Shown piece by piece: positions 20,155-20,535 of a stretch of 64,000 nt of DNA (position 1 is its first letter; each line of letters starts with the position of its first letter). The notes under the pieces were generated by a model that was not told where the DNA came from, did not search any database, and was given only the letters and a program-made list of their open reading frames with translations. The DNA is from Chloroflexota bacterium (GTDB lineage: Bacteria > Chloroflexota > Anaerolineae > 4572-78 > J111): NCBI GenBank assembly GCA_016860845.1, contig BOKF01000020.1, forward strand, positions 83,543-147,542, written 5' to 3'. Position numbers and translations under genes: made by a program.

Positions 20155-20535
20155 TCAACGTTTAACGTCCAGCACTTCTTGCAGCAGTAGCTCCACTTCA
20201 TGGGCCGGCTTCGGCCCGATGAGGCGATGCAGCTCCTGTTGTTGGCTGTTAAAAATCAACAGGACAGGATGGCCCAAAATCTTATAAGTGCGCATAATGG
20301 CCGGCCCGTCCCCTTCATTGGCATTGATCCGCTGTACGGCGATTTGCCCACGGTACGCCTGCTCCAGCCCATCCACGATGGGCGCCATGTCCGCTCAAGG
20401 AATTCAACCGTCGGTATAGATAAAGACCAGCGTCGGCTGGCCGGCGACGCCTAACGTCGGAGTCGTGCCGCCGCAGGCGGGTAGGAGCAGAATCAAGGTC
20501 AAAAGAAAAAGGAGTATCTTGTGAATGATCGCCAT
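20155..20535 (-). CDS. Predicted UxxU thioredoxin-like selenoprotein (lipoprotein)
   Basis: Read with both UGA codons (20404-20406 and 20395-20397) as selenocysteine, the gene gives 126 aa. It has a lipoprotein signal (MAIIHKILLFLLTLILLLPACGG) and then a thioredoxin fold: PTLVFIYTDG-U-IP-U-ADMAPIVDGL, AVQRINANEG, cis-proline segment ILGHPVLLIF and C-terminal helix. The UGAs fall exactly where thioredoxins have the two cysteines of CxxC (residues 44 and 47). No frameshift or third UGA occurs before the terminal stop. A hairpin fitting a bacterial SECIS follows. The upstream reading frame (to 20613) is encoded by 7-mer repeats, so the ATG at 20535 is taken. It lies between copZ and copA, suggesting thiol/selenol chemistry in copper handling outside the membrane. 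A pseudogene is the alternative, but needs two coincident mutations. Confidence 0.87.
20367..20397 (-). promoter_or_regulatory. Putative bacterial SECIS element
   Basis: After the second UGA (20397-20395) come 11 nt, then a perfect 7-bp stem GCCCAUC/GAUGGGC (20383-20377 with 20373-20367) with loop GUG. The loop starts 18 nt after that UGA and 27 nt after the first, both within the accepted range, and begins with G. Confidence 0.75.

Follow-up and report, generated by a model that had tools for sequence, protein, structure and literature searches.

The window, the whole stretch of 64,000 nucleotides from a Chloroflexota bacterium that was analysed here, carries on its minus strand a thioredoxin-like lipoprotein gene that lies among genes for copper handling, contains two in-frame UGA codons at the active site and is furnished with a small hairpin shortly after the second of them, as listed in Table 1. 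When TGA is translated as U, the frame 20535-20155(-) reads MAIIHKILLFLLTLILLLPACGGTTPTLGVAGQPTLVFIYTDG-U-IP-U-ADMAPIVDGLEQ...VLDVKR and is then closed by a further TGA. An earlier note on this DNA had placed TGA-ATT-CCT-TGA (20406-20395) at the site where a thioredoxin has Cys-x-x-Cys, with a lipoprotein signal 5' of the motif and the remaining thioredoxin 3' of it in the same frame, and the translation bears out both statements.

Table 1. Features of the thioredoxin gene and its copper-gene neighbourhood, in window coordinates
Feature	Position	Strand	Basis
Thioredoxin-like lipoprotein gene, predicted UxxU	20155..20535	-	Translation with TGA as U; PF00085; structure model
Lipoprotein signal, lipobox LPAC with Cys21	20473..20535	-	Sequence
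UGA1, codon 44, predicted Sec	20404..20406	-	TGA in 17/17 motif-covering GTDB loci
UGA2, codon 47, predicted Sec	20395..20397	-	TGA in 16/17 motif-covering GTDB loci; TGC in L008
Predicted SECIS, 7-bp hairpin, loop GUG at 20376-20374	20367..20383	-	Stability, covariation, published model
Third TGA, terminator of the thioredoxin gene	20157-20155	-	
CopA-like P-type ATPase, two HMA domains, downstream	17615..20125	-	Pfam
CopZ-like HMA protein, upstream	20617..20823	-	Pfam
CsoR-type repressor, upstream	20919..21194	-	Pfam PF02583, 98.1 bits

With U replaced by C, the protein matched the Pfam Thioredoxin family PF00085 at 33.4 bits (cut-off 23.5), its structure model had a pLDDT of 91.4 and a thioredoxin fold, and this fold has the G-H-P loop. 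The TIGR01068 thioredoxin equivalog model gave 40.6 bits vs its cut-off of 96.8, and no NCBIfam selenoprotein model reached its own cut-off for the window protein. The assignment of LPAC and Cys21 follows the lipobox rule, and Cys21 was invariant in all 18 alignment rows.

Relatives were recovered from genomes by a GTDB scan and by a profile search of the phylum. The GTDB scan relied on peptide patterns that do not include the motif, such as MxPIVDGLE, and returned 18 loci. All of them carry MAG titles, 17 with names of Chloroflexota groups and one (L003) with the name bacterium CPR1; conservation of the MxPIVDGLE peptide was partly preselected by the scan, whereas the codons and the motif were not. 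At the motif, TGA..TGA was observed in 16 of the 17 covering loci, TGA..TGC in one (L008) and Cys..Cys in none, L007 being left out of the counts as its locus starts 3' of the motif. The phylum search covered 400 Chloroflexota genomes and yielded the 30 best loci, one of which (L067) repeats L001, with the other 29 comprising 5 UxxU, 8 UxxC, 4 lipoprotein-like CxxC and 12 ordinary CxxC thioredoxins. The UxxU, UxxC and CxxC forms that the earlier note had proposed to look for among homologues thus all align at this position. In a tree of 39 rows, in which 17 of the 36 inner branches have weak support, the label changed two times for UxxU (shuffled mean 13.0), five times for UxxC and four times for CxxC. 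A relative of the window gene was also looked for in viral contigs and none was found there.

In the protein databases, the search with the read-through sequence returned 26 clusters, 25 of them of 73-77 residues, nearly all of which begin at the Met 3' of the second UGA. At E 1e-6 the protein profile search yielded 928 clusters out of 7995 scored candidates, of which the best 120 were listed; some of the unlisted clusters may be ordinary thioredoxins. Among 125 database homologues examined, 111 begin at the Met that follows UGA2 and two more, P0018 and P0076, start close to it, so gene calling conceals UxxU thioredoxins. Twelve of the 125 are full length, namely ten with WxxW, one with WPIC and one with CKIC; the WxxW homologues lie among P0028-P0038, and their motif is probably UGA..UGA translated by a gene caller with genetic code 4. 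Sixteen of the 111 cut homologues exceed 200 residues and have a cytochrome c domain behind the thioredoxin part, and a UxxU-thioredoxin/cytochrome c fusion likely exists, represented by P0045 and 15 other database proteins that are cut after the UGA. At L003:1116-1592, a TAA interrupts the frame where P0045 and like relatives run into the cytochrome c domain.

Different parts of the gene were compared between the window and its relatives L001 and L002. Against L001, dN/dS was 0.131/0.614 for codons 1-43 and 0.040/0.255 for codons 48-126, and against L002, with one extra L002 codon omitted, the corresponding values were 0.181/1.091 and 0.137/0.771, with both TGAs kept in all three genes. Judged by these ratios, which are well below 1, both halves of the gene are under purifying selection. 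The TGA pair is beyond chance because 16 of the 17 GTDB relatives that cover the motif retain it, and this, together with the five further UxxU loci of the phylum search and the purifying selection, speaks against decay and supports the opinion of the earlier note that two chance nonsense mutations at these codons are improbable. It is extremely improbable that the UGAs are true stops, either of a pseudogene or of a split gene restarting at the AUG of codon 50, which would agree with the cutting of 111 of 125 homologues at the codon-50 Met and with Met at this codon in most rows, but is opposed by the preservation of the UGA pair across diverged loci with purifying selection on both halves, by codon 50 being GCA in L071 and GTA in L072 (unusual starts) with the frame and both UGAs intact, and by the Met of the CxxC homologues L070, L073, L074 and L088, on account of which the codon-50 Met need not be a start. 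True stops would also leave the UxxC relatives and the covarying hairpin described below unaccounted for. A pseudogene was ruled out by the conserved UGA pair and the purifying selection, and a restart at codon 50 by the non-start codons of L071 and L072 and the Met of the CxxC homologues.

The hairpin, GCCCAUC-GUG-GAUGGGC, starts 11 nt after UGA2 and has 7 bp, just as the earlier note had described it; the 11-nt gap presumably equals the spacing in E. coli fdhF. The bacterial SECIS model, as given in the available text of the source (PMC13188914), has a loop of 3-9 nt, a stem of 4-16 bp, a G early in the loop, a distance of 16-37 nt from the UGA and an energy of -7.5 kcal/mol or lower. The claimed fit to this model was recovered (PMC13188914, available text), with a stem of 7 bp, a 3-nt loop that opens with G, loop distances of 27 nt from UGA1 and 18 nt from UGA2, both inside the range, and a folding energy of -11.6 kcal/mol for a 24-nt stretch. 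Across the window and GTDB loci, 17 of 18 rows share the core CCCAUCGUGGAUGGG down to the wobble bases, L006 being the exception.

Comparative and codon-level controls were applied to the hairpin. In the 31 Sec-type rows, 92.6% of the pair cells pair (shuffled mean 86.8), 13 double-change cells represent compensatory changes vs a shuffled mean of 2.5 (a count reached by 0 of 500 shuffles), and covariation scores 0.220 vs 0.119 when shuffled and at most 0.095 when slid. Double changes occur in four pairs, a number reached by 15 of 500 shuffles; further pair types showed no excess over shuffles (315/500), 8 of the 31 rows lack the loop-adjacent pair and 6 lack the bottom one. The hairpin stretch exceeds most synonymous recodings in stability in the Sec-type genes, with p-values of 0.002-0.061 in 23 rows (22 UxxU and L008) and of 0.0055-0.093 in 8 UxxC rows, and does not clearly do so in the 8 CxxC rows (0.085-0.89), where pooled codon usage was employed for all CxxC rows and three others and where the rows are related and the p-values not independent. 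When the whole 61-73 nt after the UGAs was folded, it did not stand out from dinucleotide shuffles (z 0.35 to 0.71), and Rfam at gathering score gave no match in the whole 64-kb window; the signal sits in the 17-nt mini-hairpin and is visible with the codon-level and comparative controls. In the UxxC genes, too, this hairpin occupies that position, so it is able to act on UGA1 alone, and in the UxxU genes one hairpin likely serves both UGAs.

The machinery for selenocysteine was examined in the MAGs of 18 relatives. The earlier note had made the prediction depend on selA, selB, selD and tRNA-Sec in the genome; among the relatives, all four components were detected in eight (G001, which is the nearest relative, G003, G008, G009, G010, G012, G015 and G016), and none was over the cut-off in G013; at least one component was present in 17 of the 18. 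Individually, tRNA-Sec with anticodon TCA was found in 13, selA over cut-off in 13, selB in 13 and selD in 15 of the 18 genomes. In 14 of the 15 genomes having selD this gene contains one in-frame TGA, the other being a fragment without the N-terminus, and the genes with the in-frame TGA (such as L061-L066) likely encode a Sec-containing SelD. The presence of selA is weak evidence, since it is over cut-off in 321 of the 400 phylum genomes, so that the machinery is to be expected in the phylum; among 17 further genomes, all 13 of those with a UxxU or UxxC gene have selA, as do 2 of the 4 with the lipoprotein type of CxxC. ARAGORN returned nothing over the whole 64-kb window, and selC was not found there.

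Decoding of the UGAs as a residue other than Sec, for instance Cys or Trp, whether through a dedicated tRNA or through leaky reading, would agree with the W found at both positions in ten database homologues, though code-4 calling would give W as well, and is very improbable in the face of the covarying hairpin that fits the SECIS model, the tRNA-Sec and sel genes in the genomes of relatives, and the role of UGA as a normal terminator, which ends 18 of the 36 long non-overlapping ORFs, mechanically called, of the window, copA included. On this last count a genome-wide recoding of UGA was rejected for the window DNA. The gene product is predicted, with high confidence, to be a selenoprotein with Sec at both positions, in which both UGAs would direct Sec insertion.

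Several known families resemble the window protein in part. The TlpA/ResA/CcmG and StoA families, which have a Cys motif, are alike in being predicted membrane-anchored extracytoplasmic thioredoxin folds, and the window protein would work similarly; the ResA model gave weak matches to 7 of the 18 members and none to the window protein at E 0.01, and no TlpA/ResA entries occurred among the 50 matches listed by Foldseek or VIA-align, an absence to which no weight is given. The available text of the 2026 prokaryotic selenoprotein inventory, with 119 families or subfamilies (PMC13188914), includes a Sec thioredoxin of PF00085 (UxxC), which shares the thioredoxin domain and the Sec at the first active-site position, whereas it has one Sec and the window gene has two UGAs and a lipoprotein signal. 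The HUIPC thioredoxin-like selenoprotein NF047660, entered there as UxxC (PMC13188914), is similarly thioredoxin-like with a U-I-P-x motif, but the window protein scores 18 bits vs its cut-off of 105. Two Sec residues placed two residues apart are shared with the UxxU entries that the same text gives, Prx-like PF00578, NF041115 and FmdB (PMC13188914), and with SelL, for which the accessible part of one report describes a diselenide bond (PMC2397514); the window protein is without a match to PF00578 at E 0.001, and NF041115 is not one of the 23 families that the 18 members hit at E 0.01. UxxU motifs in other families are also described in the available portions of three papers (PMC9312934, PMC2398784, PMC7539508).

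A UxxU thioredoxin subfamily was not found in the available text of the inventory, from which words starting with chloroflex or anaerolin are also absent (PMC13188914), none of the sought terms was found in PMC12013277, and no earlier report of a UxxU thioredoxin family was found in the literature searched, of which few subscription papers formed part. As the inventory, in its available text, counts differing Sec motifs as distinct subfamilies (PMC13188914), the family would represent a new subfamily of a known kind. Going by its sequence, the window protein is most likely a UxxU thioredoxin-like lipoprotein with a diselenol/diselenide site, and few natural proteins with a predicted diselenide active site are known. 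A conserved UxxU thioredoxin raises three questions: why the two sulfurs have given way to selenium, by what means a diselenide with so low a potential would be reduced on the outside of the membrane, and how a single SECIS serves two close UGAs.

The gene order csoR-copZ-trx-copA was observed in the window, L001, L002 and L004, and a CopA-like stretch is present in 10 of the 18 loci with flanks of up to 6 kb, that of L012 being a 38% fragment match. A CopA-like gene lies within 1.5 kb in 8 of 21 UxxU, 1 of 9 UxxC and 0 of 4 lipoprotein CxxC loci and in 0 of 12 loci of ordinary thioredoxins, and the control set of tRNA/sel loci has it in 0 of 48; any of CopA, CopZ and CsoR lies within this distance in 9 of 21 UxxU loci, with no match in 12 of 21, the loci of these counts being related and some flanks shorter than 1.5 kb. 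Other neighbours, taken from the 30 flanking ORFs scanned, include an HMA protein in L006; CsoR-type and PCYCGC proteins in L013; a cupredoxin-like protein in L069 and, below cut-off, in L012; cytochrome c in L004, L011 and L015; DsbA-like proteins in L015, L016 and L017; an AhpC/TlpA-like protein in L008 and, below cut-off, in L016; DsbD_TM directly downstream in L009; and SHOCT and DUF3105 in L005 and L014. Such neighbourhoods would tie selenium use to copper genes in Chloroflexota.

Taken as a whole, the gene probably encodes a lipid-anchored extracytoplasmic UxxU thioredoxin that would act as a low-potential reductase for copper or c-type cytochrome proteins. Its role as a thiol-disulfide reductase is, as a separate point, put forward tentatively as a reasonable possibility, and the gene neighbourhood suggests that it may be coupled to copper export or cytochrome maturation. 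The lipid anchor would place the thioredoxin outside the membrane, Sec44 would attack the substrate disulfide, Sec47 would resolve the intermediate and leave a diselenide, and this diselenide might be re-reduced via a membrane carrier of the CcdA/DsbD type, such as the DsbD_TM of L009; the substrates would be cysteines that act as ligands at copper or haem sites. According to the accessible part of the report (PMC2397514), the redox potential of diselenides is very low, which suits a strong reductant and calls for a strong donor.

Two other roles with Sec at both positions were weighed. Cytochrome c maturation of the ResA/CcmG kind could be the main job, with copper genes as frequent neighbours only, and is suggested by the 16 cut homologues, out of 111, whose thioredoxin part is followed by a cytochrome c domain, and by the cytochrome c, DsbD_TM and AhpC/TlpA-like neighbours named above; we regard it as doubtful, as CopA-like genes are the more systematic neighbour in the single count made, that of CopA, CopZ and CsoR. 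The selenolate pair could instead bind Cu(I) outside the membrane, in the manner of the CxxC pair that holds Cu(I) in CopZ-type chaperones; in the window and three relatives the gene sits between copZ and copA, and a CopA-like gene lies near 8 of 21 UxxU loci, both of which are consistent with this, but the thioredoxin fold with its G-H-P loop suggests redox exchange and 12 of 21 UxxU loci have no CopA, CopZ or CsoR match within 1.5 kb; as the job of the protein, such binding is judged improbable. Beyond the preferred low-potential reductase, a wider proposal that we consider unlikely holds that double-Sec thioredoxins occur throughout Chloroflexota, concealed in databases as stubs that lack everything up to the second UGA, with one hairpin recoding two UGAs nine bases apart and a diselenide/diselenolate pair dedicated to copper; if true, this pair would reduce copper-site thiols or bind Cu(I) on the outward side of the membrane, and selenium supply would be coupled to copper export and oxidase assembly.

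Further features were observed in the surrounding DNA. The copA gene contains at 18527-18593 a palindromic repeat read as the in-frame stretch NSELSTVNGELKIHNSQFIIHNY, at a site where length and sequence vary in five relatives, and in the part of copA (17615-20125) that encodes the ATPase domain, additional in-frame codons around PSTSSGRD have no counterpart in the five aligned relatives. Imperfect inverted repeats at 20549-20622 and 20872-20916 flank copZ, one per intergenic gap. A run of large ORFs, mostly on the plus strand, occupies 28225-62852, and among ten of them tested, seven matched nothing at E 1e-8 and three matched membrane-protein families (DUF2079, PMT). A rough scan of the uncovered parts of the window gave 15 further candidate read-through frames.
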